Assembly: GCA_018064475.1 (NCBI GenBank)
Contig: JAGHVD010000017.1
Span: 1-61,406, forward strand
Source: Candidatus Scatonaster coprocaballi
GTDB taxonomy: Bacteria; Bacillota; Clostridia; Saccharofermentanales; Saccharofermentanaceae
Length of the DNA: 61,406 nt
Direction of reading: 5' to 3'
Below the pieces are notes generated by a model. The model saw only the letters and a program-made list of their open reading frames with translations, did not search any database and was not told where the DNA came from. The first letter of the stretch is position 1, and every line of letters starts with the position of its first letter. The translations under genes and the position numbers were made by a program. Positions 6,656 to 47,989 of the stretch are shown here, in pieces.

Positions 6656-7339
6656 ATGTATCGGATTCTGATCGTAGACGATGAGCGGGCGCTGGCGGAT
6701 ATTATCGCGCAGATGCTGAAGGGATGTGGCTATGACACATGTACTGCTTACGATGCTGATCAGGCCTATGACACGCTCTCCAAAGGTCATTTCGATCTTC
6801 TGATCCTCGATATCAATCTTCCGGGTATGACGGGCTTTGAACTCTGCAAAGACCTCCGACAGGTGTCTGGGGTACCTGTCATTTTTGCCAGTGCTCGAAC
6901 GAATGAGACGGACCGGATCACAAGCTTCGATATTGGCGGCGATGACTATATCCAGAAGCCTTATTCGATGAAAGAACTCCTATCACGTGTGAATGCGCTG
7001 ATCCGTCGTGCGTACGGTGGTTCCCTTGAACAGGAGAAGATCGCTTTCGGCGACGTGAGTGTGGACTTAAGTGCCCATGTGGTGACCAGAGGCGGTGAAC
7101 GCGTGAATCTGGCTTCTCGGGAATTCGACTTACTGAAGTATCTCTGTCAGAATAAGAATACGGTCATACCCAAAGAGAAACTGATGGCCGAGGTGTGGGG
7201 TGCTTTTTCCGAATCGGAAGCTTCTTCCTTAACGGTGCATATCCGTTGGCTACGCGAGAAACTGGAGGAGGATCCCTCTCATCCGAAGTATATCAAGACC
7301 GTCTGGCGCATGGGTTATATGCTGGAGGTCAATGAATGA
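6656..7339 (+). CDS. Response regulator, OmpR/PhoB type
   Basis: This 227-residue regulator starts at the ATG preceded by GGAGAGGTGG. The receiver has the acidic pair at residues 8-9, phosphoacceptor Asp52 in LDINLPG and the lysine in QKPYSMKEL. The C-terminal winged helix includes LASREFDLLKYL and YIKTVWRMGYML. Its stop overlaps the start of the histidine kinase by 4 bp (ATGA). Together with the ABC genes that follow it forms a BceRS/AB-like layout, the type that answers cell-wall-active peptides. Confidence 0.9.
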   Translation: MYRILIVDDERALADIIAQMLKGCGYDTCTAYDADQAYDTLSKGHFDLLILDINLPGMTGFELCKDLRQVSGVPVIFASARTNETDRITSFDIGGDDYIQKPYSMKELLSRVNALIRRAYGGSLEQEKIAFGDVSVDLSAHVVTRGGERVNLASREFDLLKYLCQNKNTVIPKEKLMAEVWGAFSESEASSLTVHIRWLREKLEEDPSHPKYIKTVWRMGYMLEVNE

Positions 7340-8463
7340 GAAGACTGGCTCTGATCGGCGCGGTGTTGGCGCTGGCGCTTACGATATTTGCATTTTCGAT
7401 ATACCATATCTCTTCGTCGAAGACGCGTGAACCTGCCAATGAGAACGAAGCACTGACGGCCAATGAGATTGCGAATCTGGTTGCACAGGGTAGTTATGAC
7501 GAAGCAGAAGTGAAAGCTAATCAACTTCGAGAAACGCTGACCGAGGATAAGAAGGTCGAGCGAGGACCAGAAGATTATGCGCCGTTTCTGATGCTGGGTG
7601 TATGTATTCTCTTTATTGGCGGGACGTGCCTCTATGTCGGCTGGAAGATTCTCCGTCCGTTTCATAAACTGGAGCATTTTGCCGATGAGGTGGCATTAGG
7701 CAACTTGGACATGCCGCTTGAATATGAGCGTACGAATTGGTTCGGTAAATTCACGTTTGCCTTTGATAATATGCGAAATGAGATCAAACGTGCGCGCAAT
7801 GCGGAGCAGGAAGCAGTCGAGAACAATAAGACGGTGATTGCAACGCTTTCCCACGATATCAAGACACCGATCTCCAGTATCCGTGCCTATGCGGAAGCGA
7901 TGGAAATGGGGATGGATGCGACATCTGAAATGCGTGAACAGTATGTGTCGACCATTATGGAGAAATGCGATGAGGTCAGTAAGCTCTCGGAAGACATGCT
8001 GATGCATGCATTGGCCGATATGGAACGGCTACGCCTCTATCCAACGCGCTGCGAGTTGGGTCATTTTCTAGAAGAGAATTTGGCCGGCGCATCGCTTGTT
8101 CGCCCGCAGGAAGAAGTGTTCGTCATGGTCGACGAACTTCGACTGGGCCAGGTGATCGAGAACATCCTGAGCAATGCGAAGAAGTATGCCGATGGACATG
8201 TTGAAGCACGTCTGGATGTGAAGAGAGATGACGCAAAATCGTATGCGGTCATGACATTTCGAGATCATGGACAAGGCATTCCGGACGAGGATCTGCCTTT
8301 CGTATTCGAGAAGTTTTACCGTGGCAGAAATATAGGGAAGAACAGTGGTGCGGGGCTGGGATTATTTATCGTGAAGTATATTATCGAGAATTTCAACGGC
8401 ACGATCCGTGCGTACAACGATGGGGGGCTGGTAATCGAAATCAGACTTCCCGTTCTTCCTTAA
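7336..8463 (+). CDS. Sensor histidine kinase (HisKA type)
   Basis: A 375-residue kinase with two membrane segments: about residues 5-25, and about 80-100 (FLMLGVCILFIGGTCLYVG). Between them is a short, charged extracytoplasmic region of only ~55 residues. A HAMP-like linker follows, then the H box ATLSHDIKTPISS (predicted His173), N box ENILSNAKKYA, DHGQGIP and GAGLGLFIVKYI. All kinase motifs are present. The overlap with the regulator indicates cotranscription. The small sensor loop suggests it may sense through the partner transporter rather than bind a ligand itself, as reported for BceS-type kinases; that is inference. Confidence 0.87.
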   Translation: MRRLALIGAVLALALTIFAFSIYHISSSKTREPANENEALTANEIANLVAQGSYDEAEVKANQLRETLTEDKKVERGPEDYAPFLMLGVCILFIGGTCLYVGWKILRPFHKLEHFADEVALGNLDMPLEYERTNWFGKFTFAFDNMRNEIKRARNAEQEAVENNKTVIATLSHDIKTPISSIRAYAEAMEMGMDATSEMREQYVSTIMEKCDEVSKLSEDMLMHALADMERLRLYPTRCELGHFLEENLAGASLVRPQEEVFVMVDELRLGQVIENILSNAKKYADGHVEARLDVKRDDAKSYAVMTFRDHGQGIPDEDLPFVFEKFYRGRNIGKNSGAGLGLFIVKYIIENFNGTIRAYNDGGLVIEIRLPVLP

Positions 8464-11818: not shown

Positions 11819-13429
11819 TTAGCCCCACAAAGCGGTGAGCATAGGGATAATCTGCTTCTTTCTTGACATCACGCCCGGCAGGAAAATGGCATTGTCTTTG
11901 GGTTCTACGGAGAAGGCGAATCGGATAGTGTCATCTTCGCCCTCATAGAGTAATTCGGTACCTTCCAACAGCACGTCTGTCAGCATCAGGATGACAAAGT
12001 CGTAGTTGCGCTCGCACTTGAGTTTGGACATGTGCGCGAGGAACTCGTCCTTGCGGTCCATCATCTTCAAGGAGTCGATGCAGATGATCTGCGCAACACC
12101 CAACGTGTGTTCAGCAATATGGAATTCTTTGAAATCCGCCTTGAAAAGGTCTTCCACGCTCTTGTCGTCGAAGGAGGCGTCGAAGAGGTCGCGTCCCAGT
12201 TCGTCGATGGAGACACCGGCGATTCTGGCCAGACGCTCTGCCATGGCGATATCACGCTTCGTGCAAGTCGGTGACTTGAACATAACCGTATCGGAGAGAA
12301 TTGCGGCACACATGAGACCGGCCATGTTGGAAGAAGGCATTACGCCGTTCTCCTGATACAGCTCAGTGATGATCGTCGTGGTGCTGCCCACCGGTTCATT
12401 ACGCATGGCGATGGGCTGTGTCGTCTGAATATCAGCAAGTCTGTGGTGGTCAATGATGCCAAGGATCTCTGCTTGTTCTAATCCAGGAACTGCCTGAGCC
12501 AGCTCATTGTGGTCGACCAGTACGATTCTCTTTCTTCTCGGACGAAGGAGGTGGAAACGAGCCAAGGTACCAATGACCTTCTGGTTCTCATCCAGCACCG
12601 GATAACTTCTAAAACGGCTCTTCAGCACGACTTCTCGAACATCGTCGATATAGTCCGTCAAGTGGAAACATTCTATATCGCCGGTAAAACATGCGCGAGA
12701 GATTGGAATCGCCTGGTAGATGAGCTTGACGACCTTACTAGCATCCAGCGGGGTGGAAATGACGCAAGTAGAATGCGCATCGGTGAACCAATTCTGATCC
12801 ACATCTGTCTGACAGAGGATTAGGCATTGCACCCCAAGCTTCAAGGCGCGCTGAATCATATCCGGCTGGTTGCCGCAGATGACGATGGCGTCGTTGGAGG
12901 AGAACATCAGGTTCTCACAAGTTTGTGGTAATGCGATGAAAATCTCGCCGGAGACTTCATCAATCGTCATCTCGCTTTCATTGACGATTCGACCTTCCAA
13001 TACGCTCAGAAGGTTAAACAGCGGAACTTTATCGATACGCGGTTCATGAATGGTCTGCATGTAGTAGTCGGCGATATCGCCTGCGGATAAAGTACCGTAG
13101 AGTGTGCCGTCGTCATTGATGACCGGAATTACTGGAATCTTACCGTCTGACATGGTGGTCCAAGCGTGGTCCAGTGTAACGGAGGCGTTGAGGGCCGGCG
13201 GTGTATCGAAATCCAGATCTTTGACCTGTGTCCGAACATCTCGGATACGAACAGGGGTTTCGAAGCCAAAACGCTGCAGCATTCGCTTGGTTTCGTCGCT
13301 TAGATGATCCAGACGTGCAGCCGTATAATCCTTCTCGCCAAGCGCATGCTTCAACGCCGCGTATGACATGGCGGATACGACTGTATCGGTATCCGGATTC
13401 TTATGACCAACTACGTAAATTTCACTCAT
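11819..13429 (-). CDS. Mn-dependent inorganic pyrophosphatase with CBS and DRTGG domains
   Basis: This 536-residue family II pyrophosphatase hydrolyses PPi to phosphate in the cytosol. The DHH catalytic domain begins VVGHKNPDTDT. It is interrupted by a regulatory insert: a CBS motif (~65-120), a DRTGG-like domain (~130-240) and a second CBS motif (~250-305). DHH resumes with VDHNE and IIDHHRLAD, and the DHHA2 part closes the protein and ends with MSRKKQIIPMLTAL. Family knowledge: the CBS pair binds adenine nucleotides (AMP/ADP inhibit, ATP activates) and diadenosine polyphosphates. The gene is monocistronic, with 27 bp separating it from the GH43 stop upstream. Confidence 0.92.
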   Translation of the reverse strand: MSEIYVVGHKNPDTDTVVSAMSYAALKHALGEKDYTAARLDHLSDETKRMLQRFGFETPVRIRDVRTQVKDLDFDTPPALNASVTLDHAWTTMSDGKIPVIPVINDDGTLYGTLSAGDIADYYMQTIHEPRIDKVPLFNLLSVLEGRIVNESEMTIDEVSGEIFIALPQTCENLMFSSNDAIVICGNQPDMIQRALKLGVQCLILCQTDVDQNWFTDAHSTCVISTPLDASKVVKLIYQAIPISRACFTGDIECFHLTDYIDDVREVVLKSRFRSYPVLDENQKVIGTLARFHLLRPRRKRIVLVDHNELAQAVPGLEQAEILGIIDHHRLADIQTTQPIAMRNEPVGSTTTIITELYQENGVMPSSNMAGLMCAAILSDTVMFKSPTCTKRDIAMAERLARIAGVSIDELGRDLFDASFDDKSVEDLFKADFKEFHIAEHTLGVAQIICIDSLKMMDRKDEFLAHMSKLKCERNYDFVILMLTDVLLEGTELLYEGEDDTIRFAFSVEPKDNAIFLPGVMSRKKQIIPMLTALWG

Positions 13430-36384: not shown

Positions 36385-36476
36385 GTAAAAATAAACAAAT
36401 TGCGTAATTTTTCTGTAATTTTTATCAGAGGAAAAATTGCACAGCCGAAAACCAATCGCACGGATGGTGAATTGGA

Positions 36477-36504
36477 TTGACACACTTTCGTGGAAGTATA
36501 TAAT
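36477..36504 (+). promoter_or_regulatory. Promoter of the phosphonate operon
   Basis: TTGACA (36477-36482), a 16-bp spacer and TATAAT (36499-36504): near-consensus, so strong unless repressed. The inverted repeat that starts 5 bp downstream would cover the transcription start. Confidence 0.85.
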
Positions 36505-36508
36505 GGAA

Positions 36509-36547
36509 GTGTTCATTTTCACGATGAATATATATAGAAATGAACAC
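36509..36547 (+). promoter_or_regulatory. Inverted repeat operator/hairpin in the phosphonate operon leader
   Basis: GTGTTCATTT (36509-36518) and AAATGAACAC (36538-36547) are exact inverted copies, separated by an AT-rich stretch, with AAAGGAG directly after the right arm. It may be an operator for a dimeric winged-helix protein at the start site, or an RNA hairpin that presents or hides the ribosome binding site. Confidence 0.6.
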
Positions 36548-36562
36548 AAAGGAGTGTGCAAT

Positions 36563-37453
36563 ATGTCATTGTCCAGAAAACAGTTCGATATCCTTGTTGC
36601 CATAGTAGAATCGGCTTCTCCGCTGTCTCAGAGAGAACTTGAGAATGTGACCGGTCATTCCCTTGGTACCATCAATAAAGTGTGTAAAGAATTAACGGAG
36701 ATGAAGCTGATTCTGAACGGTCAGGTTACAGAGAAAGGCATGGAAGCCTTGGAGCCTTATCGTGCGAAGCGTGCGATCTTCATTGCCGCGGGGTTCGGAT
36801 CAAGAATGGTCCCGATTACGCTGAATACTCCGAAACCACTGGTCCGTGTACATGGAAAGCGCATCATTGATACACTTCTGGATGCGGTAATTGAAGCGGG
36901 AATCGAAGAGATCTACATTGTTCGCGGATATTTAGGCGAACAGTTCGATCAGCTTCTTTATAAATATCCGATGGTCCATTTCCTGGATAATCCGGTCTAT
37001 AACGAGGCCAACAACATTTCCAGCTCCATGATCGCGCGTTCATTGCTTTCAAATGCTTATGTGTTTGAGGCGGATCTTCTGCTCTCGAATCCGAAAATCA
37101 TTACCAAATATCACTATACTTCCGATTTCCTTGCAATTCCGAAGGATCGTACCGATGACTGGTGCTTCGAAGTCAAAGACGGCGTGATTCGCGAAGAGAA
37201 GGTTGGTGGAGAGAACTGCTGGCAGATGGTAGGCATTTCCTATTGGAACGCGGAAGATGGCCAGAAGTTGACGAGCGACATTGAGAAAGTCTTTACCGGA
37301 CCTGGCGGACGTGAACGTTACTGGGAACAGGTGCCGCTTGTGTACTGTAAAGAGAACTACCAGGTTGCTGTTCGAGCATGTAAAGAAGAAGACATCGTGG
37401 AGATCGATACTTTCCGCGAACTGAAGGAGATCGACAAGTCATACGATGTGTGA
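36563..37453 (+). CDS. Winged-helix plus nucleotidyltransferase (PntC/LicC-like CTP transferase)
   Basis: 296 residues from the ATG after AAAGGAG. Residues 1-65 form a winged helix-turn-helix (LSQRELENVTGHSLGTINKVCKEL, cited by its core SLGTINKVCKEL). From ~70 the nucleotidyltransferase domain begins IFIAAGFGSRMVPITLNTPKP, with the Arg and Lys of the NTP loop, and continues with the acidic metal site in FEADLLLSN. LicC-type enzymes make CDP-choline from phosphocholine; the PntC group makes CMP-activated 2-aminoethylphosphonate. The phosphonate genes beside it favour the second. The fused DNA-binding domain suggests the enzyme may also regulate the operon. Confidence 0.8.
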   Translation: MSLSRKQFDILVAIVESASPLSQRELENVTGHSLGTINKVCKELTEMKLILNGQVTEKGMEALEPYRAKRAIFIAAGFGSRMVPITLNTPKPLVRVHGKRIIDTLLDAVIEAGIEEIYIVRGYLGEQFDQLLYKYPMVHFLDNPVYNEANNISSSMIARSLLSNAYVFEADLLLSNPKIITKYHYTSDFLAIPKDRTDDWCFEVKDGVIREEKVGGENCWQMVGISYWNAEDGQKLTSDIEKVFTGPGGRERYWEQVPLVYCKENYQVAVRACKEEDIVEIDTFRELKEIDKSYDV

Positions 37454-37495: not shown

Positions 37496-38629
37496 ATGGA
37501 AACTATCAAGAGAAATATTCTGCTGAATCCTGGTCCGTCTACGACTACGGATACGGTAAAATACGCGCAGGTCGTACCGGATATCTGCCCGCGTGAGAAA
37601 GAGTTTGCCGGACTCATGAAGGGCCTTCGTGAGGATCTGGTGAAAGTAGTACATGGAGATTTAGAGAAGTACACATCCGTACTGTTCTGTGGTTCAGGCA
37701 CAATTAATATCGATGTGTGTCTCAATTCTTTACTACCGGAAGGAAAGAAGGCACTGGTTATCAATAATGGTGCTTATTCCACGCGTGCAGTGGAGATTCT
37801 ACAAGGATACGGTCTTCCGTACATTGATCTGAAATTTGCGGTTGACCAGCGTCCAGACCTCGCCATCGTGGAGGAGACGCTGAAGAATGACCCGGACATT
37901 GCGCTGGTACATACGACGCATAATGAGACGGGAACCGGCATCTGTAATCCGATTTCTGAGATTGGCGCATTGGCCCATCGTTATGGCGCTATTTTTACCG
38001 TAGATACCACGAGTACCTACGCGATGGTTCCTATCGATATCGAGAAGGATAACATCGATTTCTGCATGGCCTCTGCACAGAAAGGCTTGATGGCGATGAC
38101 CGGTCTTTCTTTCGTAATCGGAAACCGTTCCATCATAGAAGCATCTGCCAACTATCCTAGACGTAGTTATTACTGTAACCTGTTCTTGCAGTATGATTGC
38201 TTCGAGAAGACAGGGGAGATGCATTTCACCCCACCGGTACAGACCATCTATGCGACAATTCAAGCTTTGAAAGAATACTGGGCAGAGGGCGAGAAGAATA
38301 AGTGGGCCCGCCATACCCGCGTGTTCAATGCCATCAATCGTGGGCTTGATGAACTAGGGTTCCGTCAGGTCATTCGACCGGAGTGGCGGACCGGACTTGT
38401 ATCCTCGGCGATTTATCCGGATGATCCGAATTTCAGCTTCGAGAAAGTACATGATTACTGCTATGAACGTGGTTTTACCATCTATCCAGGTAAAATTTCC
38501 ACCACCAATACATTCCGCCTTTGTGCCTTGGGTGCGATCGATGAACCGGATATCGTGGCTTTCTTCGAAGTCTTCAAGGAAGCACTTGCGACAACGGGCG
38601 TCAACGTGCCGGTACACTACAACAGTTAA
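37496..38629 (+). CDS. phnW: 2-aminoethylphosphonate aminotransferase
   Basis: 377 residues, class V PLP aminotransferase. It begins ILLNPGPSTTTDTVK and has CGSGTINID, TTHNETGTG and the PLP lysine in ASAQKGLMAMTG; RLCALG is near the C-terminus. It converts phosphonoacetaldehyde to 2-aminoethylphosphonate when run in the biosynthetic direction, which is expected here because the mutase and decarboxylase genes follow. No phosphonate degradation gene (phnX, phnA) is present. Confidence 0.88.
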   Translation: METIKRNILLNPGPSTTTDTVKYAQVVPDICPREKEFAGLMKGLREDLVKVVHGDLEKYTSVLFCGSGTINIDVCLNSLLPEGKKALVINNGAYSTRAVEILQGYGLPYIDLKFAVDQRPDLAIVEETLKNDPDIALVHTTHNETGTGICNPISEIGALAHRYGAIFTVDTTSTYAMVPIDIEKDNIDFCMASAQKGLMAMTGLSFVIGNRSIIEASANYPRRSYYCNLFLQYDCFEKTGEMHFTPPVQTIYATIQALKEYWAEGEKNKWARHTRVFNAINRGLDELGFRQVIRPEWRTGLVSSAIYPDDPNFSFEKVHDYCYERGFTIYPGKISTTNTFRLCALGAIDEPDIVAFFEVFKEALATTGVNVPVHYNS

Positions 38630-38647: not shown

Positions 38648-39955
38648 ATGGGAGAAGAACGCAAGACAGTATATACCTGCTTCTGTACAGATGTGATCCA
38701 CAAGGGACACTTGAACATTCTGAATGAAGCTTCGAAATTAGGACGTGTCATTGTCGGATGCCTGTCGGACTGTGCATTGATCCGATATAACCGGTTTCCG
38801 ACTCTTCCGCAGGAGGAAAGACTAAAACTCTACAGATCCCTGCCGGGTGTCGAGGAAGTGGTGCTGCAGGAACAGATGCATTACGATGACGTGATCGCGT
38901 TGATTCATCCGGATTACATCGTACACGGTGATAACTGGCAGAATGGTCCAGAGAAGGCGATCCGCGATCACGTGGAGAGCCTTCTGCAGGAATACGGCGG
39001 AGAAATCATCGATATACCTTACACTTATGATGAAGATGTGCATAAGATCGACATGCAACTTCGCGAGAAACTGGCGATGCCGGAATACCGTCGTAAGCGT
39101 TTGCGTCAACTTCTGAAGATGACACCGGTCGTGAAGACTATGGAAGCACATAGCGGATTGACCGGACTCATCGTGGAAAAGACAGTAGTAGAGAATGAGG
39201 GAAAACTCGATCAATTCGATGCCATGTGGGTCAGCTCGCTTTGTGACAGTACAGCGAAGGGCAAACCGGACATTGAACTCGTAGATATGACCTCACGCTT
39301 CCGCACAATTGAGGATATTACCGAGGTCACGACGAAGCCGATCATCTTTGACGGAGATACCGGTGGATTGACCGAACACTTCGTCTATACGGTGCGAAGC
39401 CTTGAGAGATTGGGCGTATCAGCAGTGATTATCGAAGATAAGACCGGACTGAAGAAGAACTCCCTTTTCGGCACTGAGGTAGAGCAGACGCAAGCGAGTA
39501 TCGAGGAATTCTCCGCCAAGATCGCGGCCGGTAAGAAAGCACAGTTGACGGATGATTTCATGATTATTGCGCGTATCGAGAGCCTGATCCTAGAACGAGG
39601 TATGGAGGATGCACTGGCTCGTGCGAGAGCTTTTGTCAAAGCAGGCGCGGACGGCATCATGATCCACAGTAGAAAGAAAGATCCGGAAGAGATCCTGACC
39701 TTCTGCGACCGTTTCCGCAACGAAGACAGTAAGACGCCGATCGTTGTAGTACCTACAAGTTTTAATACAGTGACGGAAGAAGAACTGGGAGCACATGGTG
39801 TGAATATCGTGATCTATGCCAACCAGCTGACACGAAGTGCTTTTCCCGCTATGCAGAAGACGGCAGAAGATATCTTGAAGAATCACCGTGCGAAAGAAGT
39901 AGACGATCGCCTGATGTCCATTAAGAATATCATTACGCTGATCGACGAGATCTGA
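38648..39955 (+). CDS. aepX: Phosphoenolpyruvate mutase with N-terminal cytidylyltransferase-like domain
   Basis: 435 residues in two domains. Residues 1-140 form a nucleotidyltransferase fold with CTDVIHKGHLNIL (HxGH motif) and a VGCLSD strand. Residues ~150-435 are PEP mutase, with WVSSLCDS, FDGDTGG and the signature EDKTGLKKNS, which distinguishes mutases from isocitrate-lyase-like relatives. The mutase makes the C-P bond of phosphonopyruvate. The operon thus has two nucleotidyltransferase folds: this one and the separate PntC-like gene. Whether the N-terminal domain here is active is unknown; the ISS(T)ER-type second motif was not obvious. Confidence 0.92.
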   Translation: MGEERKTVYTCFCTDVIHKGHLNILNEASKLGRVIVGCLSDCALIRYNRFPTLPQEERLKLYRSLPGVEEVVLQEQMHYDDVIALIHPDYIVHGDNWQNGPEKAIRDHVESLLQEYGGEIIDIPYTYDEDVHKIDMQLREKLAMPEYRRKRLRQLLKMTPVVKTMEAHSGLTGLIVEKTVVENEGKLDQFDAMWVSSLCDSTAKGKPDIELVDMTSRFRTIEDITEVTTKPIIFDGDTGGLTEHFVYTVRSLERLGVSAVIIEDKTGLKKNSLFGTEVEQTQASIEEFSAKIAAGKKAQLTDDFMIIARIESLILERGMEDALARARAFVKAGADGIMIHSRKKDPEEILTFCDRFRNEDSKTPIVVVPTSFNTVTEEELGAHGVNIVIYANQLTRSAFPAMQKTAEDILKNHRAKEVDDRLMSIKNIITLIDEI

Positions 39956-39979: not shown

Positions 39980-41104
39980 ATGAAAGTTGAGAAATTAGTA
40001 GATATTATCGGTGCGGATTTCTATACAGGCGTGCCGGATTCACAGCTTAAGGCGTTATGTAACTACCTGATGTACACCTATGGTATTGATGCGCATCACC
40101 ACGTCATTGCAGCCAATGAGGGCAACTGCACCGCGCTGGCGGCAGGTTACCATCTGGCCACGGGCAAAACACCTGTTGTGTATATGCAAAACAGCGGAGA
40201 GGGAAACATCATTAATCCGGTGGCAAGCCTTCTGAACGATAAGGTGTATGCCATTCCGATGGTCTTCATTATCGGCTGGCGTGGAGAACCCGGTGTACAC
40301 GATGAGCCGCAGCATATCTACCAAGGTGAAGTGACCGTTAAGCTCTTGGACGATATGGGCATCGCGAATTTTGCGATTGGAAAAGATACGACCGACGAAG
40401 AAGTCGAAACGAAGATGGCCGAATTTAGAGAGGTTCTTGCAGCGGGCAAGGATGTGGCCTTCGTCATCCGTAAAGGTGCACTGTCCTTTGATGAGAAGGT
40501 CCACTATGAGAACGAGAATAAGATGGTGCGTGAAGAAATTATTCAGCACATCGTAGCGATCAGTGAAGAAGATCCGATTATTTCCACAACAGGCAAGGCT
40601 TCACGCGAACTCTTTGAGACACGTGTAGCCAATGATCAACCGCACAAGTACGATTTCCTGACTGTTGGCTCGATGGGTCATAGTTCCTCGATTGCACTGG
40701 GTGTGGCGATCAACAAGCCGCAACAGAAGATCTGGTGTATAGATGGAGATGGCGCGGTCCTGATGCATATGGGCGCTATGGCTGTGATCGGCGCAAGTGC
40801 ACCACAGAATCTGGTTCATATCGTGATCAATAATGCGGCGCATGAGACTGTGGGCGGTATGCCGACTGTCATGGATCATGTCGATCTGGTGGCTATGGCC
40901 AAAGCTTGCGGTTATCCGTATGCAGTACGTGTGGATGATTTCGAATCGTTGGATCGTGAACTTTCACTTGCGAAGGGCCTGAATGAATTGTGCCTCATAG
41001 AAGTGAAGTGCTCAATTGGCGCAAGAGAAGACCTCGGACGTCCGACGACTACTGCACTTGAGAATAAGCAGAACTTCATGTCCTATTTGGCAGAACTGGA
41101 ATAG
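39980..41104 (+). CDS. aepY: Phosphonopyruvate decarboxylase
   Basis: 374 residues, thiamine-diphosphate enzyme. The N-terminal PYR domain starts DFYTGVPDSQLKALCNYL and has the catalytic Glu in HVIAANEGNCTALAAG; the PP domain has GSMGHSSSIALG and the diphosphate/metal motif DGDGAVLMHMG...INNAAHE. It removes CO2 from phosphonopyruvate to give phosphonoacetaldehyde, which pulls the unfavourable mutase step forward. Normal length. It ends 5 bp from the stop of the oppositely oriented YidC-fusion gene. Confidence 0.93.
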   Translation: MKVEKLVDIIGADFYTGVPDSQLKALCNYLMYTYGIDAHHHVIAANEGNCTALAAGYHLATGKTPVVYMQNSGEGNIINPVASLLNDKVYAIPMVFIIGWRGEPGVHDEPQHIYQGEVTVKLLDDMGIANFAIGKDTTDEEVETKMAEFREVLAAGKDVAFVIRKGALSFDEKVHYENENKMVREEIIQHIVAISEEDPIISTTGKASRELFETRVANDQPHKYDFLTVGSMGHSSSIALGVAINKPQQKIWCIDGDGAVLMHMGAMAVIGASAPQNLVHIVINNAAHETVGGMPTVMDHVDLVAMAKACGYPYAVRVDDFESLDRELSLAKGLNELCLIEVKCSIGAREDLGRPTTTALENKQNFMSYLAELE

Positions 41105-41109
41105 AAGAA

Positions 41110-43752
41110 TCAGAAGATTTCATCCTCATCCTCTTTCTGCCAACTGTCCATATCGAATATATCTTGTCCCTCTAGAGAATACCAGATAGTATCTTGGAAG
41201 ACATTGCCGGAATCAGAAGTAAGTGCCCAGTTGTCAGTGTACATGATGTACTGTTTGCCGGCCTTCTCCTCCGGACGATAGATTGGACGATTTGTGAACG
41301 GGTTGATTGGGTTTTCCAACAGCCCGTTCATTGCGATATACGGTGTATCAGCAGAAGTCATGAATGAATCATCAATCTTCATCTCACCACTAGATCCGAA
41401 ATCCTTATATAGAAGTACCGGATTATAAGCCATTGAGTCTTCGGAATTATATTCGGCGTCTGAATTACTACCATCTAGGAAGTATCTGTCATCGAAGTGA
41501 CCGAGCGGCCAACCGTGGTCAGACACGATGATGATTCTTGTATTATCGTAGACACCGAGTCTTTTCAACTCATCCATCCAGTTTCCTAACTGGATCCAAG
41601 CGGCCATATTGCATTGGTAATGTGTAAGCTTGTACCGACGATTGGTCTCCATCTCTAAGGTGATGCCATCACACGTGAATCGTTCCGGATGATTCTTGTC
41701 GAATTCAGTGTTATCGACTTCATACTGCGGCGCATATTCCGGTTCCTGAAGAGGCATCGTGTTGTGTGCGGTACTGTTCTGAAGCAGGAAGAAATGATTC
41801 TTTCCAGAATCGTCAACGGTTGTTAAGGAGGGGAGAGCCTGTAAGGCCGAGTAGGAATTGTTGAAGAGATTCATATAGGCAGAAGAAACGATATAGTGTC
41901 CTTCTTCACTAAAAGTCTGCAAAGAGAGACCGGAACGCTTCGATGAGAAGTAGGAACCGTCCGTATAGAGGAAAGACTGCAGGCAAAGCGGGGAGGCTTT
42001 CATCAAACTATAGCAGAAGAAATTACGCTTCCAAGTTGCAATGACCTCTTTATCGCTCTCGACTGAATCGCAGAACATTCCCTGCTCTGTGTTATATGCT
42101 TTGATATTGTCGTAGCCATCGTAGATGCTTAGATCCGGAATACCACTATATCCTGCAAAAGGAGGATCAAATACAGTTACATCGTAACCTGCTTCAGAGA
42201 AAATGACTGGCATGGTTAAGAGCGCTTCATCATGTTTCTGACGTAATGAGACATCCGAACGCTCGTTGATGGCGTACGGAGTATAATCGTAACCTCCAAA
42301 GAGGGCAGGAGCGGCAATGACTGTACGCATACCGAATGAAAGTGTATTCGGGTACCAAGTAAATCCAGAGAATTGTTCTTGTAACTCCGGCTTTTCCTGA
42401 AACATATATGGGATGTATGCCGGAATTGCGCGGTCTATCATAACGACGACTACATTCTGTCCTGTCTTGCTTAACGGAATTTCCGGAAGTTCCTGAGAGG
42501 TATTGTCCAGCACCCTACGAATATCCTTCATATCTGTTTGAATCCGATAGATGTTGAAAACTGAGATGATGGTTACTACGATTAGGAGAATCGGTGCCAA
42601 GAATCGAATGATGGATTCTTTTCTCAGAAATATGAAAATCACGATACAAATCACAGCCAGAACGAGAAGACCATTCATGAAAACCGAATTTGCAGGATGA
42701 GAAAGACCAGTATCGAACTGAAGATCGGAAGAAAGAATACTCTCACTTTTGCCGAACATTAGAAAATCTATAAAACTGATAGCCACGAAGCACCATATGG
42801 CGATACGGGCACGTTGGCGATTCTTACTTCCAGCGAGATAGTAGAAAAGTCCTCCCCAGATGACCAAGGCCCCAACAGCTGTGAACAAGGAGTAGAGAAT
42901 ATATCGGACGGGCGAGTGAACATTCGTCATGAGGATAAATTCTGATGTGGAGGACGAGATGACCAAAGAAGGAATCAATGCGCCGAGAAAGACACTCAGA
43001 ATCCCAGCGCCGTAAAGGAAAAGTCGATTGTCGACCTTATCTTTTGCCGAGGACGAAGACTTATCTGTCTTGGGAAGATGGCGATGAGCATAGACGATGT
43101 TTTTGACCAACGAGAAGACATTGTTCAAAGTCCAGTAGAGAACCAGTCCGGATGGAGACTGATAGAGTAGAACGAGGAAAATCAACGCCATACCATGAAG
43201 GGTGATCTTATCTTTCCACTTCATTCCTTTGGTGTAAATCTCGCTGGAGATAATATTGATCAGCGTCATGAGTACTGGGAGTACATTGATCGAGAAATTG
43301 CCGATGCGTAACAAGGCATCTGGTTCACCTAGATCCTTCAGCATCAGGAAACTTGCGCCTCGAAGAACAGAGAGATTCGACAGGAATCGGTACGCGGCAA
43401 TGAAGAACGGTACTTCTAGGATCAATGCGATAGAAGAACGAAGTGCATAGATGGGTTTGTAGTTGTTCTCACGATAGAAAGATTGAAGCATCATGTAACG
43501 CTCATCACCCTTGAAAGTCTTCTTGATGTGGGTGATAAATGGATCCATCTGCTTCTCGCGATCTTTCTCTTCGGCCTGAATCGCATCAGCCCGATTGTAG
43601 AAGGGGAGAAGAAGAAAATTCACAACGAGACTCAGCGGAATGATCGCAGCCCCGTAGTTATGGAGGAAATGGAAGGCTATCGCATAGACAGCCTCAAGAA
43701 TGAGTATCAATGGGGAGAGGATAAATTGATAAAGAATACTCCCGAACGACAC
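41110..43752 (-). CDS. YidC/Oxa1-like domain fused to LTA-synthase/alkaline-phosphatase-superfamily domain (paralogue 2)
   Basis: 880 residues. Residues 1-225 are YidC-like: FKGDERYMMLQSFYRENN and the final segment QSPSGLVLYWTLNNVFSLVK match the insertase fold, but the groove arginine (Arg in VRGIMYPL of E. coli YidC) aligns with Asn45. Four to five further membrane segments (~243-400) lead to an extracytoplasmic alkaline-phosphatase-superfamily domain (~430-880). Its likely metal-site Asp440 is in VVVVMIDR, the nucleophile is probably Thr477 (GMRTVIAAPALFGGYDY) and RIIIVSDHGW supplies the DH pair. Members of this superfamily transfer phosphoglycerol, phosphoethanolamine or sulfate groups. 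It is the last gene of the operon. Confidence 0.85.
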   Translation of the reverse strand: MSFGSILYQFILSPLILILEAVYAIAFHFLHNYGAAIIPLSLVVNFLLLPFYNRADAIQAEEKDREKQMDPFITHIKKTFKGDERYMMLQSFYRENNYKPIYALRSSIALILEVPFFIAAYRFLSNLSVLRGASFLMLKDLGEPDALLRIGNFSINVLPVLMTLINIISSEIYTKGMKWKDKITLHGMALIFLVLLYQSPSGLVLYWTLNNVFSLVKNIVYAHRHLPKTDKSSSSAKDKVDNRLFLYGAGILSVFLGALIPSLVISSSTSEFILMTNVHSPVRYILYSLFTAVGALVIWGGLFYYLAGSKNRQRARIAIWCFVAISFIDFLMFGKSESILSSDLQFDTGLSHPANSVFMNGLLVLAVICIVIFIFLRKESIIRFLAPILLIVVTIISVFNIYRIQTDMKDIRRVLDNTSQELPEIPLSKTGQNVVVVMIDRAIPAYIPYMFQEKPELQEQFSGFTWYPNTLSFGMRTVIAAPALFGGYDYTPYAINERSDVSLRQKHDEALLTMPVIFSEAGYDVTVFDPPFAGYSGIPDLSIYDGYDNIKAYNTEQGMFCDSVESDKEVIATWKRNFFCYSLMKASPLCLQSFLYTDGSYFSSKRSGLSLQTFSEEGHYIVSSAYMNLFNNSYSALQALPSLTTVDDSGKNHFFLLQNSTAHNTMPLQEPEYAPQYEVDNTEFDKNHPERFTCDGITLEMETNRRYKLTHYQCNMAAWIQLGNWMDELKRLGVYDNTRIIIVSDHGWPLGHFDDRYFLDGSNSDAEYNSEDSMAYNPVLLYKDFGSSGEMKIDDSFMTSADTPYIAMNGLLENPINPFTNRPIYRPEEKAGKQYIMYTDNWALTSDSGNVFQDTIWYSLEGQDIFDMDSWQKEDEDEIF

Positions 43753-43766
43753 GGTCTACCTCCAGA

Positions 43767-45062
43767 TTATTGTTCCTTCTGTTCTGATTCGTCTTGCTTA
43801 GTTGTCTGATTGAAGGAGGCGAGCTTGTTCTCTAGATAATCGGCCATACGGGTCGCGCCTTCACCCTGGTATGCCCACGCCTCGTCACGAACCTGATGGC
43901 GGCTTTCAGTGAAACTTTCGTCTTCCAGACAATCATCAATCATTTTCTTCAGGTCAGCACGATTCTCTTTCGTCAGCTTGGCGCCTAGACGTGGAATGAC
44001 GCTTAATCCCCATGGAAGACGCTTGAGCCACCATGCATCGTACGGCGATGCGTCGAATTCAGTATCCGCACAGATGACCGGCTTATCGAATACCAGCGAG
44101 AAGTCGAAGATGACGCCGGAAAAGTCAGAGATGAGAATGTCGGAACGATTGAGTGCATCGAAGTTATCAGAATCTCTATTCCATTCAAGTTGATCATTTT
44201 CCGGGAACTCGGTCATCAGCTTGTCCATCAGTTCTTTCTCAGAAGTGAAAGACTGTGGATGAGGACGCACGATAATGTGATAACCTGTCGCCAGAAGATC
44301 TTTGATGAATTCTGAACCGTAACGGCTCAAGATGCTGCTCGTACCCCAAGATGGTGCAAGAAGAACGGTACGTGTGCCGTTTTGGTTGCTACTGTTGTCG
44401 GAAGAGGCTAGACGCGCTTTGAATTTGCGGGCTTTCTCGTCCATAAAAGGACTTCCTGTCAGCACGAGTTCTTTGGCTGGGAGCTTACGGATCGCTTCGA
44501 TATCGCGTGTATCATCAATCTGGAATTGTCCAGACAGTAACAATGCGTCGTAGTAGTCAATACCGAACATGCGGTATGTGGTCATTTCAGCAGGAGAGTG
44601 AGGGATATGTACATAGTACTTTACGTCCTTAGAACGCTTCCACTGATAGACATCAAGTCCTGGCGTGGTGGAAAGAAGGATAGTTGCCTTCAAGAAGTTC
44701 AGCTTCGCAAAGGCCTTGTTTCCAGGGCCGATGTATTCCGTCTTTACGTGAGACATCTCTGTCTGCTTTAATCCTGGGTCGTCTTCAGAAGCTGTCATAT
44801 AGACGCAGTCTACGCCACGTTTGTCCAACTCGCGAAGAAGTGGTTCAAATACAGACCAGTAGCGCTTATCGTCAGAGAATACAGCAATTGGAATGGCCTT
44901 ATCGATATTGTCTTTCTGTTTGCCTCCGGATAAGAGAAAGCGAATCTTGACCCACAGTCCTTTGAAGGCGAAACGAGCAACGCCCAGAAGACCGATCAGG
45001 ATCGCGAAGAGCATGGAACCCGTTCCCGGGTCGATATATAGTCTCAGTAATGATGGGTTCAT
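43767..45062 (-). CDS. CDP-glycerol glycerophosphotransferase family protein (TagB/TagF-like)
   Basis: 431 residues. An N-terminal membrane segment follows the motif LYIDPGTGSMLFAILIG, a leader seen in clostridial envelope-polymer proteins. The PF04464-type catalytic domain shows YYVHIPHSP, LLAPSWG, IIVRPHPQ and LISDFSGVIFDFSL, which contain the conserved His and Asp/Ser positions of TagF enzymes. It should transfer glycerol phosphate, or another CDP-linked polyol phosphate, to a cell-surface polymer at the inner face of the membrane. It overlaps the upstream YidC fusion by 4 bp and precedes the second by 14 bp. Confidence 0.88.
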   Translation of the reverse strand: MNPSLLRLYIDPGTGSMLFAILIGLLGVARFAFKGLWVKIRFLLSGGKQKDNIDKAIPIAVFSDDKRYWSVFEPLLRELDKRGVDCVYMTASEDDPGLKQTEMSHVKTEYIGPGNKAFAKLNFLKATILLSTTPGLDVYQWKRSKDVKYYVHIPHSPAEMTTYRMFGIDYYDALLLSGQFQIDDTRDIEAIRKLPAKELVLTGSPFMDEKARKFKARLASSDNSSNQNGTRTVLLAPSWGTSSILSRYGSEFIKDLLATGYHIIVRPHPQSFTSEKELMDKLMTEFPENDQLEWNRDSDNFDALNRSDILISDFSGVIFDFSLVFDKPVICADTEFDASPYDAWWLKRLPWGLSVIPRLGAKLTKENRADLKKMIDDCLEDESFTESRHQVRDEAWAYQGEGATRMADYLENKLASFNQTTKQDESEQKEQ

Positions 45063-47848
45063 GGTTCTTTGTCCTCTTTCTTCCAGTTTTCTTTGTCTAA
45101 GATATTCTGGTTCGCACAGGAGAACCAGATCGTGTTTGTAAACTTGTTTCCGGTGTTAGCGTTCGGAGACCAGTTGTCCGTGTAGAGAATATACTGCTTC
45201 TCGGACAGCTTAGCCTCTGGCTGGAACATCGGGTTATTCGTGAATGGATTGATCGGATTCTCAATGAGATTGTTCATCGCCAGGTAAGGTGTGTCGGCAT
45301 TGGTCATGAAGGTATTATCTGTGGCAAAATCACCTTGAGAATCGAAGTCTTTATAAAGAAGAATCGGATTATATCCCATAGTATCATACGGATTGTAGAT
45401 GGCATCAGATGACTGTTTGCCGAAGACACGATCTTCGTCGTGTTCCAGTCCCCATCCATGGTCAGATACGACAATGATTCTTGTGTTGTCATATACGCCT
45501 AGTGCACGCAGTTCATCGAACCATTTTCCGAGCTGGATGAGGGCCGCCATATTACTCTGGTAGTGCGCAAGCTGGTAGGTGGTCTCCATCTTGATGGACT
45601 TGCCTTCATAGGTGAATCGATCAGCATGTGCAGAATCATATGCTGCATTGTCTACCACATCGATTGGTTCGTAGGAAGGTTCCTGAAGCGGAATGATGTT
45701 ATGAGTGGTACTGTTCTGCATCAGTATGAAAGAACCATTGTCGGAAGGCTCGGCTTTCGTAATCGAAGGTAAAGCCTTGAGTACCTCGTAAGAATTCAGG
45801 AAGGAATCCATGAGGGCGCTTGGTACAGCATATCGATCGATATTACCACTCTGAATCAGTGCGGTGGTTGAAGTACCTGGCTGGAAATAAATACCGGACG
45901 AGTATACCGCAGGCTGGAAGAAGAGCGGACAGACCTTCATGAAACCATAGCAGAAGAAGTTGCGCTCCCATGTTTCTTGAATGATGTCCTGAATATCGTC
46001 TGAAGTACGGAACTGACCAAATTCAGTGTTGTATGCCTTGATCTCCGGATATGGGTCGTAGATAGACAGGTCAGGAACCTGACTATATCCAGCATAAGGT
46101 GGGTCCATGACTGTGACATCATAACCTGCTTCAGAGAAGAGAATCGGCATAGTCAGGAGTGCCTGATTATGCTTCGTTTTCAGGGAGACATCTGAACGCT
46201 TATCGGTATTGACCGGAGTAAAATCATATCCACCGAAGAGGGCCGGTGCAGCGACCAGGGTTCTGGTTCCGTAAGAAAGCGTATTCGGATAGTAGGTGAA
46301 ACCGGAGAATTGCGAAGCGAGAGTAGGATTCTCCTGCATCATATATGGTACGTAGGCAGAGACGGAGCGGTCCAGCATCAGCACAACGACGTTTTGTTCA
46401 GTCTGGCTGAATGTGAGGGTTGGCTTTCCGTCCTCTGCACTTTCGTTGATGACACGACGAATTTCCGGCATCTCTTTCTGGATGCTGTAGACATTGAAAC
46501 CAGCCATCGCACCTACCGCAATCAGCAGAACCGGTGAAATGAAGGTGATGATATGTTCTTTCTTGAACTTAAAGATGAGGATGACTACTGCGATGATGGC
46601 GACGATGGCGACTACATCCCAGACTTTACGTGCGAGAGGGAAAGTCTGCGCAACTTCGAACCGAAGATCCTGTGTCAGAGAGTTGGTATTATCACCGAAG
46701 GCCATGTAGTTCACGATACCGGAGATGGCACAGATCCAAATAACGATGCAGAAGTTTCGCTTGACTTTCGGATTGGCTAACGCATAGAAAAGCCCAAACC
46801 AGATGACGTAAAGACTGATCGCCGTTAAGAAAGCGAACAGTACGTAAATGGCCGGAGAATGAACGGCTGAAGTCAGTACGAATTCGGAGACAGATGACTT
46901 GATTACAGAGGATGGAACTAGCGCGCCAACTACGATAGCCAGAAATAGTGCACCACCGAAGAATAGTTTCGCGCTTGGCTTCTTCTCGTCCGCAGAAATG
47001 TCTTTCTTGTCGGAAGACTTCGGAATGAGACTGAGAACGAGCGGTAATTGCAGGAGAATGGCCGTTACGTAGATGATCATGCGATAATCGCTTGGACCGT
47101 GATAGGAGAACAGATTGTAGAAGATCACGCCGACACCGGCAAGGCTGAAGAAGTAACCGGAAGTTCTCAACTTGTTCTTGGTTGCATTGACGATGTTCTT
47201 GATCAAGGAGAATACATTGTTCAGTGTCCAGTAAAGTACCAGACCGGAAGGAGAGTCATAAAGGACGACCAGGAAAATGAGCGCCATCACATAGAGCATG
47301 ATCTTATCCTTGAATTTCTGCCCCTTGGTATAGATCTCACTGGAGATGATGTTGATGACGGTCATGAGAATCGGCAGTACATTGACACCGAAACCACCGA
47401 TCATAATCAATTTGTCCGGAGAAGAGAGGTCGGACAGCATGGCAAATCTTGCACCCTGCAAGTCCGGAAGCTTGGACAAGAAGTTATATGCTGCGATGAA
47501 GAAAGGTACCTCGAGGATCAGGGCAATCGAGCTTCGAACGGCATAGATCGGCTTATAATTATTCTCACGATAGTAAGCTTGGAGCATCATGAAGCGCTCG
47601 TCGCCTTTGAATGTTTTCTTGATATGTGTAACGAAGGGCTCCATCTTCTGATTTCGGATCCGCTCTTCTTCAGAAATCGCATCTGCGCGGTTGTAGAAGG
47701 GGAGAAGTAGAAGATTGACAGCTAGGCTCAAAGGAAAGATAGCTGCGCCACTGCTTCGTAGAATGTGGAATGCTGTACTATAGACCGCTTCGAAGATAAG
47801 TGTCAGCGGTGACAGGAACAGCTGGTATAGAAATTGACCAAAAGACAT
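45059..47848 (-). CDS. YidC/Oxa1-like domain fused to LTA-synthase/alkaline-phosphatase-superfamily domain (paralogue 1)
   Basis: 929 residues from the ATG at 47848 (AAAGGAT upstream). Same architecture as the paralogue at 41110: YidC-like residues 1-222 with Asn45 at the groove-arginine position, a longer set of membrane segments (~230-455) that includes an extra segment pair near 231-275, and the external domain with Asp493 (VVVLMLDR), Thr530 (GTRTLVAAPALFGGYDF) and RIIVVSDHGW. The two copies are closely similar over the YidC part and catalytic motifs and differ most in the linker. First gene of the operon. Confidence 0.85.
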   Translation of the reverse strand: MSFGQFLYQLFLSPLTLIFEAVYSTAFHILRSSGAAIFPLSLAVNLLLLPFYNRADAISEEERIRNQKMEPFVTHIKKTFKGDERFMMLQAYYRENNYKPIYAVRSSIALILEVPFFIAAYNFLSKLPDLQGARFAMLSDLSSPDKLIMIGGFGVNVLPILMTVINIISSEIYTKGQKFKDKIMLYVMALIFLVVLYDSPSGLVLYWTLNNVFSLIKNIVNATKNKLRTSGYFFSLAGVGVIFYNLFSYHGPSDYRMIIYVTAILLQLPLVLSLIPKSSDKKDISADEKKPSAKLFFGGALFLAIVVGALVPSSVIKSSVSEFVLTSAVHSPAIYVLFAFLTAISLYVIWFGLFYALANPKVKRNFCIVIWICAISGIVNYMAFGDNTNSLTQDLRFEVAQTFPLARKVWDVVAIVAIIAVVILIFKFKKEHIITFISPVLLIAVGAMAGFNVYSIQKEMPEIRRVINESAEDGKPTLTFSQTEQNVVVLMLDRSVSAYVPYMMQENPTLASQFSGFTYYPNTLSYGTRTLVAAPALFGGYDFTPVNTDKRSDVSLKTKHNQALLTMPILFSEAGYDVTVMDPPYAGYSQVPDLSIYDPYPEIKAYNTEFGQFRTSDDIQDIIQETWERNFFCYGFMKVCPLFFQPAVYSSGIYFQPGTSTTALIQSGNIDRYAVPSALMDSFLNSYEVLKALPSITKAEPSDNGSFILMQNSTTHNIIPLQEPSYEPIDVVDNAAYDSAHADRFTYEGKSIKMETTYQLAHYQSNMAALIQLGKWFDELRALGVYDNTRIIVVSDHGWGLEHDEDRVFGKQSSDAIYNPYDTMGYNPILLYKDFDSQGDFATDNTFMTNADTPYLAMNNLIENPINPFTNNPMFQPEAKLSEKQYILYTDNWSPNANTGNKFTNTIWFSCANQNILDKENWKKEDKEP

Positions 47849-47887
47849 ATCAAATGCATCCTTTATATATATTACAATCAAAAAGAT

Positions 47888-47896
47888 ATTATACCA
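47888..47896 (-). promoter_or_regulatory. Extended -10 promoter of the YidC-fusion operon
   Basis: On the minus strand TGGTATAAT is an exact extended -10, 40 bp before the start codon; no good -35 is seen. Confidence 0.6.
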
Positions 47897-47989
47897 TAAA
47901 ACCATCTGTTTTCCTTTTGTGAGATAGAACGAAACTTTTGCCCATATAGTTATAGAAATCTGCCGTTATCTCTGATAATATTAAATTGT

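Follow-up and report, generated by a model that had tools for sequence, protein, structure and literature searches.

YidC-like fusion proteins and a TagB-like partner: a probable surface-decoration machine of gut Clostridia

A stretch of 61,406 nucleotides from Candidatus Scatonaster coprocaballi (Clostridia; GenBank assembly GCA_018064475.1, contig JAGHVD010000017.1), here called the window, encodes two proteins, fusion A and fusion B, which join a YidC-like membrane domain to further transmembrane (TM) helices and an outer domain of the alkaline phosphatase superfamily. A TagB/TagF-like protein (TagB-like for short) is encoded between them. Since genes for the activation of choline or aminoethylphosphonate often adjoin the fusions in relatives, we propose that the fusions and their partner, together the module, are probably an undescribed machine that puts choline or aminoethylphosphonate groups on the cell surface. 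We give an even chance to the fuller reading, in which the TagB-like protein and the fusions decorate the surface with small amino-alcohol phospho-groups, working on both sides of the membrane as a complete lipid relay. All the components are from known superfamilies; among the titles and abstract beginnings listed in searches of open-licence literature, there was no description of the fusion, of its pairing with the TagB-like protein or of the link to phosphocholine and phosphonates.

Architecture and distribution of the module

The open reading frame (ORF) of fusion A spans 45059-47905 on the reverse strand, and the conserved start, the ATG at 47848, gives a protein of 929 amino acids (aa). 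Its gene lies upstream of the TagB-like gene and overlaps it by 4 bp, and fusion B starts 14 bp past the TagB-like gene (Table 1). An earlier note, made from the letters of this DNA alone, had read here two genes of 880 and 929 aa, each with YidC-like, membrane and alkaline-phosphatase-superfamily parts, and between them a TagB/TagF-like gene with a 4-bp overlap. The ORFs, Pfam and NCBIfam confirm the former, and the coordinates together with a PF04464 match the latter. Elsewhere, the genome of the window (2.23 Mb, 94% complete) encodes a YidC of its own, a further full PF04464 protein and three more members of the sulfatase family.

Table 1. Features of the module and of the adjoining phosphonate genes in the window
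Feature	Position	Strand	Basis
Fusion A, 929 aa: YidC-like domain, TM hairpin, five TM helices, outer alkaline-phosphatase-superfamily domain	45059..47848	-	ORF read, Pfam, NCBIfam, AlphaFold2, structure search
YidC-like domain of fusion A, residues 1-222; residue 45 (47714-47716) is Asn, Arg/Lys in plain YidCs	47183..47848	-	Profiles, alignment, model
TM hairpin of fusion A, residues 226-265; not in the 880-aa fusion	47054..47173	-	Alignment, hydropathy, model
Five TM helices of fusion A, residues 293-472, LtaS-type	46433..46972	-	Hydropathy, model; positive-inside rule predicts outer domain outside
Outer alkaline-phosphatase-superfamily domain of fusion A, residues 478-929; D493, T530 (46259-46261), H716, D796, H797	45062..46417	-	Pfam, model, structure search, alignment
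TagB/TagF-like protein, 431 aa: N-terminal TM helix with invariant YIDPGTG, GT-B fold, RPHP and SDFSG motifs	43767..45062	-	Pfam, profile comparison, model, structure search
Fusion B, 880 aa, GTG start: architecture of fusion A without the TM hairpin	41110..43752	-	ORF read, Pfam, alignment
Winged-helix and LicC/PntC-like cytidylyltransferase; putative aminoethylphosphonate activation	36437..37453	+	Pfam; inference from PMC6697681
2-Aminoethylphosphonate aminotransferase (PhnW/AepZ)	37496..38629	+	TIGR03301, 439.3 vs cut-off 360.8
Cytidylyltransferase-like domain and phosphoenolpyruvate mutase	38648..39955	+	Pfam; TIGR02320, 420 vs cut-off 319.55
Phosphonopyruvate decarboxylase (Ppd), convergent with fusion B, 5 bp from its end	39980..41104	+	TIGR03297, 455 vs cut-off 312.5

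A scan of named genomes, which left plain YidC in, gave at least 594 pattern matches, at least 539 of them confirmed as relatives. The best 80 of the scan matches, that is, those nearest the query, furnished 79 loci (the named loci), whose record titles read Clostridia, Clostridiales, Lachnospiraceae, Oscillospiraceae/Ruminococcaceae, Butyrivibrio, Mageeibacillus and the like, some giving no group. From these loci and the window we read 107 fusion ORFs of at least 500 aa (75 aligned in alignment A2 and 32 more, some cut by contig ends). This rules out a chance fusion as well as misassembly, the latter raised in the earlier note: the fusion is not confined to one genome. A fusion match was found in all 23 genomes of the window's genus, its own included (in G016 as the C-terminal part alone, at a contig end), in 27 of the 59 relatives searched and in 12 of the 391 genomes of an even sample of the class. 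The class search scored at most two candidates per genome, and four plain-YidC hits (L050-L053) were treated as no fusion.

The earlier note had also inferred that the three proteins form one polymer-modifying machine, and the TagB-like protein did prove to be a near-obligate partner of the fusions, with which it might physically form such a machine. A full-length TagB-like gene (E below 1e-160) is present in 11 of the 12 fusion genomes of the class sample, G292 being the sole exception, and in none of the 379 others. This count leaves out partial matches that miss the N-terminal part (E 1e-59 to 1e-52), which occur in the fusion-less G191, G286 and G380 and as a second match in G254. Fifteen of the 17 TagB-like genes of the class sample adjoin a fusion (on the opposite strand in G311), and the remaining two lie 4-5 kb off. 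Among the named loci, a TagB-like gene lies within 300 bp of a fusion and on the same strand in 65 of 79, or in 50 of the 56 where both flanks exceed 1.5 kb. An Eggerthellaceae contig (L134:7978-12156) carries a fusion and TagB-like pair outside Clostridia, a possible case of horizontal transfer or a binning error.

Choline and phosphonate genes beside the module

The association of the module with choline and phosphonate genes is one that we hold with high confidence. A complete aminoethylphosphonate pathway (PntC-like, PhnW, phosphoenolpyruvate (PEP) mutase and Ppd) abuts the module in the window, and a search for choline kinase at E 1e-10 gave no match in the window genome. Within the genus, 21 genomes have a PEP mutase; in 20 of them it lies at most 2.8 kb from a fusion match, and in the remaining one it is at a contig end. 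In the class sample, PEP mutase is found in 10 of 12 fusion genomes versus 22 of 379 others, choline kinase in 6 of 12 versus 23 of 379, and either of the two in 11 of 12 versus 39 of 379. By the content of their flanks, 16 of the named loci are choline-type (choline kinase, EamA LicB-like or BCCT transporter), 11 are phosphonate-type, 11 have a LicC-like match alone and 41 have none of these markers; the thresholds of the hidden Markov models behind these labels were our own choice and uncalibrated, as were the LicD and TagD-like profiles, of six rows each. Of 38 loci, 26 have the nearest partner gene no more than 400 bp away, 24 have it on the same strand and 17 show both. The locus of Butyrivibrio sp. 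INlla21 (L109) is phosphonate-type and that of isolate 1XD8-76 (L107) choline-type. The 41 marker-less loci come from 35 genomes, of which 19 have a PEP mutase somewhere; five of these 19 are genus genomes that were counted before, and when six genus genomes are taken away the figure is 14 of 29. Two clusters of neighbour genes (14 and 22) turned out to be antisense ORF artefacts.

Gene order ties the module to both pathways. In one locus (L145, genome G168), fusion, TagB-like, PntC-like, PhnW, PEP mutase and Ppd genes follow each other in one direction with overlaps or small gaps. The second module of the same genome (L146) converges on BCCT and lic-type genes, so that G168 has one module beside each pathway, and its two TagB-like proteins are sisters. 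Three further loci (L105, L106 and L121) have the order licC, licA, licB-like, TagB-like, fusion, the families having been read in L101 and L099. L149 has the order fusion, PEP mutase, iron alcohol dehydrogenase (6984-7964), Ppd, TagB-like, and in L158 an iron alcohol dehydrogenase (12374-13363) and a LicC-like gene stand upstream of the fusion-TagB pair. The dehydrogenase in these runs suggests that hydroxyethylphosphonate may take the place of aminoethylphosphonate there.

The phosphonate genes resemble the phosphonyl tailoring (Pnt) clusters of PMC6697681 in having PEP mutase, Ppd, PhnW and PntC-like genes. They differ in their company: PMC6697681 names LicD-like or glycosyltransferase neighbours and mentions neither YidC nor sulfatase. 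Relatives share with Lic-1 (LicABCD) the LicA, LicB and LicC-like genes, which are next to the module, but the TagB-like and fusion genes are at the place expected for LicD.

Several neighbours are worth pointing out in their own right. LicC/PntC-like cytidylyltransferases carry an N-terminal winged-helix domain, as at 36437-37453(+) in the window, and L099:4498-6300 is a triple fusion of winged helix, cytidylyltransferase and choline kinase; such cytidylyltransferases are possibly self-regulating. The LicC-like match in L086, L097, L117 and L139 is part of a protein of about 600 aa, which in L117:6930-8732 and L097:14095-15888 is an NTP_transf_3 domain fused to Aminotran_1_2 (Pfam) beside the module. 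These composite proteins make the LicC-only class weaker; the two NTP_transf_3-Aminotran_1_2 proteins might make another CMP-activated headgroup, e.g. of ethanolamine type. A glycoside hydrolase family 95 protein, Pfam-read in L069 only and not found in the window, is encoded between a symporter and the fusion in L066, L068-L072, L074 and L093.

The YidC-like half

Both fusions match 60KD_IMP (PF02096; E 8e-23 and 4e-23, 81.7 and 82.7 bits against a cut-off of 35) in Pfam and TIGR03592 (yidC_oxa1_cterm; 91.0 and 90.6 bits against 84.3) in NCBIfam. The N-terminal part also matches solved YidC structures at E 2e-11 by sequence profile, which bears out the earlier claim that it is YidC-related. 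YidC structures are absent from the 50 matches listed for the whole fusion A model, where the outer domain dominates, so that the YidC assignment rests on sequence profiles. The fusions share with YidC/Oxa1 insertases a TM core with a cytosolic hairpin, but differ from them in having Asn for the groove Arg/Lys and a transferase fused on, and in that a separate YidC exists in the genome. The latter, on contig C52, rules out the fusion as the sole YidC of the cell.

The groove residue sets the fusions apart from plain YidCs. Among the 105 fusion ORFs with a letter at position 45, there are 103 Asn, one Ser and one Thr, whereas plain YidCs have a basic residue in five of five cases (Arg in the window genome's own YidC, Lys in four others). 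Alignment A1, made of 27 of the 41 extracted proteins, shows Gln, Thr and Ser as well at position 45. The YidC-like domain is probably no longer an insertase. The earlier note had proposed that the YidC fold is reused as a scaffold for handling lipids or polymers; the YidC relatedness stands and the loss of a key insertase residue fits. According to a preprint, E. coli YidC, Oxa1 and Get1 act as lipid scramblases in vitro once they are reconstituted (PMC10491306).

The strong homology to YidC could also be taken to indicate protein modification: the YidC domain would capture nascent or secreted membrane proteins and the outer domain would add phosphocholine or phosphonate to them, as PptA, a member of the same superfamily, does on pilin (PMC10434233). 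This is quite unlikely in our opinion, as the positive groove residue, called strictly conserved in all homologues (PMC8920935), is not basic in any of the 105 fusion copies with a letter there.

The outer half

Pfam finds a Sulfatase domain above cut-off in both fusions (E 3e-7 and 9e-7). The AlphaFold2 model of fusion A (75 sequences; mean predicted local distance difference test score (pLDDT) 88.7, predicted template modelling score (pTM) 0.73) has YidC-like helices to residue 222, the hairpin at 226-265, five helices at 293-472 and lastly an alpha/beta domain that runs to the C-terminus. Hydropathy and charge across the alignment likewise place the five helices, with the last domain outside. 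Its best matches in the PDB are EptA (top), PbgA, a Vibrio homologue, LtaP and LtaS, so that the outer half resembles LtaS and EptA; a structure comparison with LtaS was among the checks that the earlier note had called for. Phosphonate monoester hydrolases and sulfatases rank closely behind, and the query-normalised global TM-scores in the list are low (0.19-0.26). The EptA equivalog of NCBIfam scores 17 bits against a cut-off of 660 for the 929-aa fusion and is not among the matches listed for the 880-aa fusion. When the fusions were compared by profile with the three other sulfatase-family proteins of the window genome, no significant match came up. To our knowledge, EptA/MCR/PptA enzymes have neither a YidC domain nor a TagB-like partner.

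The intact Asp/Thr/DH set that had been noticed earlier is invariant: all 75 aligned fusions have D493, T530, H716, D796 and H797, and so do the 32 further ORFs wherever there is a letter to compare. The metal or nucleophile roles of these residues are tentatively assigned by motif order. The motif filter of A2 ([GQ]DE[RK] and NTRI[IV]), which passed 73 ORFs from 54 of the 79 named loci, makes invariance at the filter motifs hold by construction. Positions 45, 493, 530, 716, 796 and 797 lie outside this filter and were rechecked in the 32 ORFs that are not in A2.

LtaS-type enzymes consist of five TM helices and an outer catalytic domain with a Thr nucleophile, by which, according to the model, LtaS takes its group from a membrane lipid (PMC4192460). 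The fusions share the five helices and the outer domain, have Thr at the presumed nucleophile position and are close to LtaS/LtaP in the structure search. In contrast to the fusions, LtaS/LtaP are without a YidC domain, use phosphatidylglycerol as donor and, in LtaS, have Glu as first metal ligand where motif order gives Asp in the fusions. PptA, which puts phosphocholine on pilin, may draw its group from phosphatidylcholine, though this donor is unproven (PMC10434233).

Matches by profile or fold extend to phosphonate monoester hydrolases, choline-sulfatase and other sulfatases, and the outer domain might accordingly be a hydrolase that removes or recycles headgroups as a phosphodiesterase. 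Such a role is highly unlikely: all copies have Thr at the presumed nucleophile position, the membrane part has five helices as in LtaS, and the fusions sit in biosynthetic gene runs.

The TagB-like partner

The TagB-like protein matches Glyphos_transf (PF04464) across part of the profile (E 2e-13; 50.5 bits against a cut-off of 22.1), and its family profile matches TagF-like Cps3D and TarL. In its AlphaFold2 model (pLDDT 88.2), an N-terminal helix is joined to a GT-B fold, and the top structure match is TagF plus CDP-glycerol. For all this likeness to the TagB/TagF CDP-glycerol glycerophosphotransferases, it falls far below the cut-offs of the TarF and TarL equivalogs (13.2 vs 550 and 11.5 vs 1000 bits), has a fixed N-terminal TM helix with YIDPGTG, and its neighbouring donor genes point elsewhere. 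The earlier reading as a CDP-glycerol transferase calls for revision. Nothing pointing to CDP-glycerol was found, and CDP-glycerol is disfavoured as donor because a TagD-like cytidylyltransferase gene occurs in 1 of the 79 named loci, as judged with a profile whose sensitivity was not controlled. The neighbouring genes point to CDP-choline and CMP-aminoethylphosphonate as donors, and perhaps to CMP-hydroxyethylphosphonate as a further one.

The fold of this protein and its PF04464 match, together with the five TM helices and outer domain of the fusions and the presence of LtaS/LtaP among the best structure matches, would also suit a synthase of a polymer like lipoteichoic acid. The outer half would then polymerise glycerol phosphate from phosphatidylglycerol, the TagB-like protein would prime with CDP-glycerol, and the choline or phosphonate genes would be bystanders that decorate the polymer. 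We consider this unlikely, since the single locus with a TagD-like gene stands against 27 with choline or phosphonate genes.

LicD and other points of doubt

LicD is a possible alternative transferase. A LicD-like ORF occurs in 2 of the 79 named loci (L097 and L113), L113 being the only one among the 16 choline-type loci, and of the six genus genomes in which no LicD match was found, five (G002, G012, G013, G018 and G022) have both the module and PEP mutase. The simple idea that LicD was replaced by the module is weakened, as LicD ends the L145 run and has matches elsewhere in the window's own and most genus genomes. Two loci illustrate other arrangements. L150 (G034:C1) has PEP mutase without a fusion and three LicD genes around the phosphonate genes, apparently an alternative transferase arrangement, and L151 (G000:C80), in the window genome, is a Wzy-type polysaccharide locus with a full PF04464 protein, an IspD-like cytidylyltransferase and LicD. 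The polymer of this C80 locus is a candidate acceptor. Of Lic-1 and PptA it has been written that there is currently no evidence of both within one species (PMC10434233).

Several findings weigh against the proposed decoration relay. The phosphonate genes of the window are convergent with the module and do not form one operon with it. The 41 marker-less loci show no marker in the flank sequence covered, and LicC-like, the sole match in eleven others, is a generic fold. G033 has a fusion with neither PEP mutase nor choline kinase, PEP mutase is found without a fusion in the window's family too (G034 and G380), and of the 12 fusion genomes of the class sample, nine belong to the window's family and the other three to a single second family, a kinship that the Fisher tests ignore. 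PF04464 enzymes are known to act on lipid-linked glycans, not on simple lipids. LicD comes after the phosphonate genes in L145, where the run continues with a Polysacc_synt protein and then LicD; it is beside PEP mutase in L161, and 17 of the 23 genus genomes, the window's own included, have a LicD match elsewhere. It may therefore be LicD that does the transfer and the module that does something else.

These last observations, along with the C80 locus and its Wzy, LicD and full PF04464 genes, would fit headgroup decoration that uses no lipid relay: the TagB-like protein or LicD would transfer phosphocholine or phosphonate directly to a lipid-linked glycan in the cytosol, as TagF-like enzymes act on such glycans, and the fusion would flip or trim the glycan or transfer another group, e.g. 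glycerol phosphate. We regard this as a doubtful but serious possibility: fusion and TagB-like gene occur together in nearly every case, the transferase-type residue set is intact in the fusions, and LicD is rare in the named loci.

Evolution of the module

On the tree of 72 TagB-like proteins, the choline/phosphonate label changes six times, and at least four of these changes are forced by well-supported branches, which indicates that the module has paired with either pathway repeatedly. The tree is without two long rows (L154 and L149b) and the count takes in only choline- or phosphonate-labelled rows; alignment A3 comprises 61 of the 62 named TagB-like proteins (L143 was left out) and that of the window. 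For the fusions, A2 holds 24 same-locus pairs, and in each of them the two YidC halves resemble each other more than the two outer halves do. The L110 pair is an example (98% in the YidC half vs 50% in the outer half), and its third-codon-position identity drops from 0.73-0.88 to 0.22-0.43 near codon 240. Tandem paralogues with near-identical YidC halves, divergent outer halves and a third-position step are seen in L110:7213-12787 and L127:2456-15035, and this looks like gene conversion of the front half of the fusion; neither the window pair nor L067 shows such a step. We infer that the front half may be held to a common partner and donor, with the outer halves free to diverge on acceptors.

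A proposed relay and its implications

With CDP-choline or CMP-phosphonate made in the cytosol and the transferase domain outside, something must cross the membrane. Based on the gene content, phosphocholine or a phosphonate (aminoethylphosphonate in the window) would be activated inside as a CMP ester. The membrane-anchored TagB-like enzyme would then move the headgroup from CMP to a membrane lipid, and the groove of the YidC-like domain would pass the lipid headgroup to the outer leaflet. There, the five-helix and outer half, whose fold and residues suit the reaction, would take the headgroup on Thr530 and hand it to a surface polymer or protein, by analogy with LtaS, EptA and PptA. One TagB-like protein might serve several fusions with similar front halves and different outer halves, i.e. 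one donor and several acceptors.

It is tempting to go one step further and suppose that the YidC/Oxa1 fold has been turned into a passage for lipid headgroups and that, with the TagB-like protein, it makes up both the missing last step of phosphonate tailoring and a LicD-independent route for phosphocholine, one donor-maker feeding interchangeable outer domains. This we offer tentatively, as somewhat short of an even chance. The tailoring steps after nucleotidyl activation were called unknown in 2019 (PMC6697681), and the module is a specific, widespread and testable candidate for the step from CMP-aminoethylphosphonate to the surface in Clostridia of the animal gut, some of them named isolates. 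If the relay is real, it would be a case of the YidC/Oxa1 fold doing lipid chemistry and not protein insertion, which would fit the lipid scrambling by insertases mentioned above. It would also give commensals a LicD-independent way to display phosphocholine, a group recognised by hosts.

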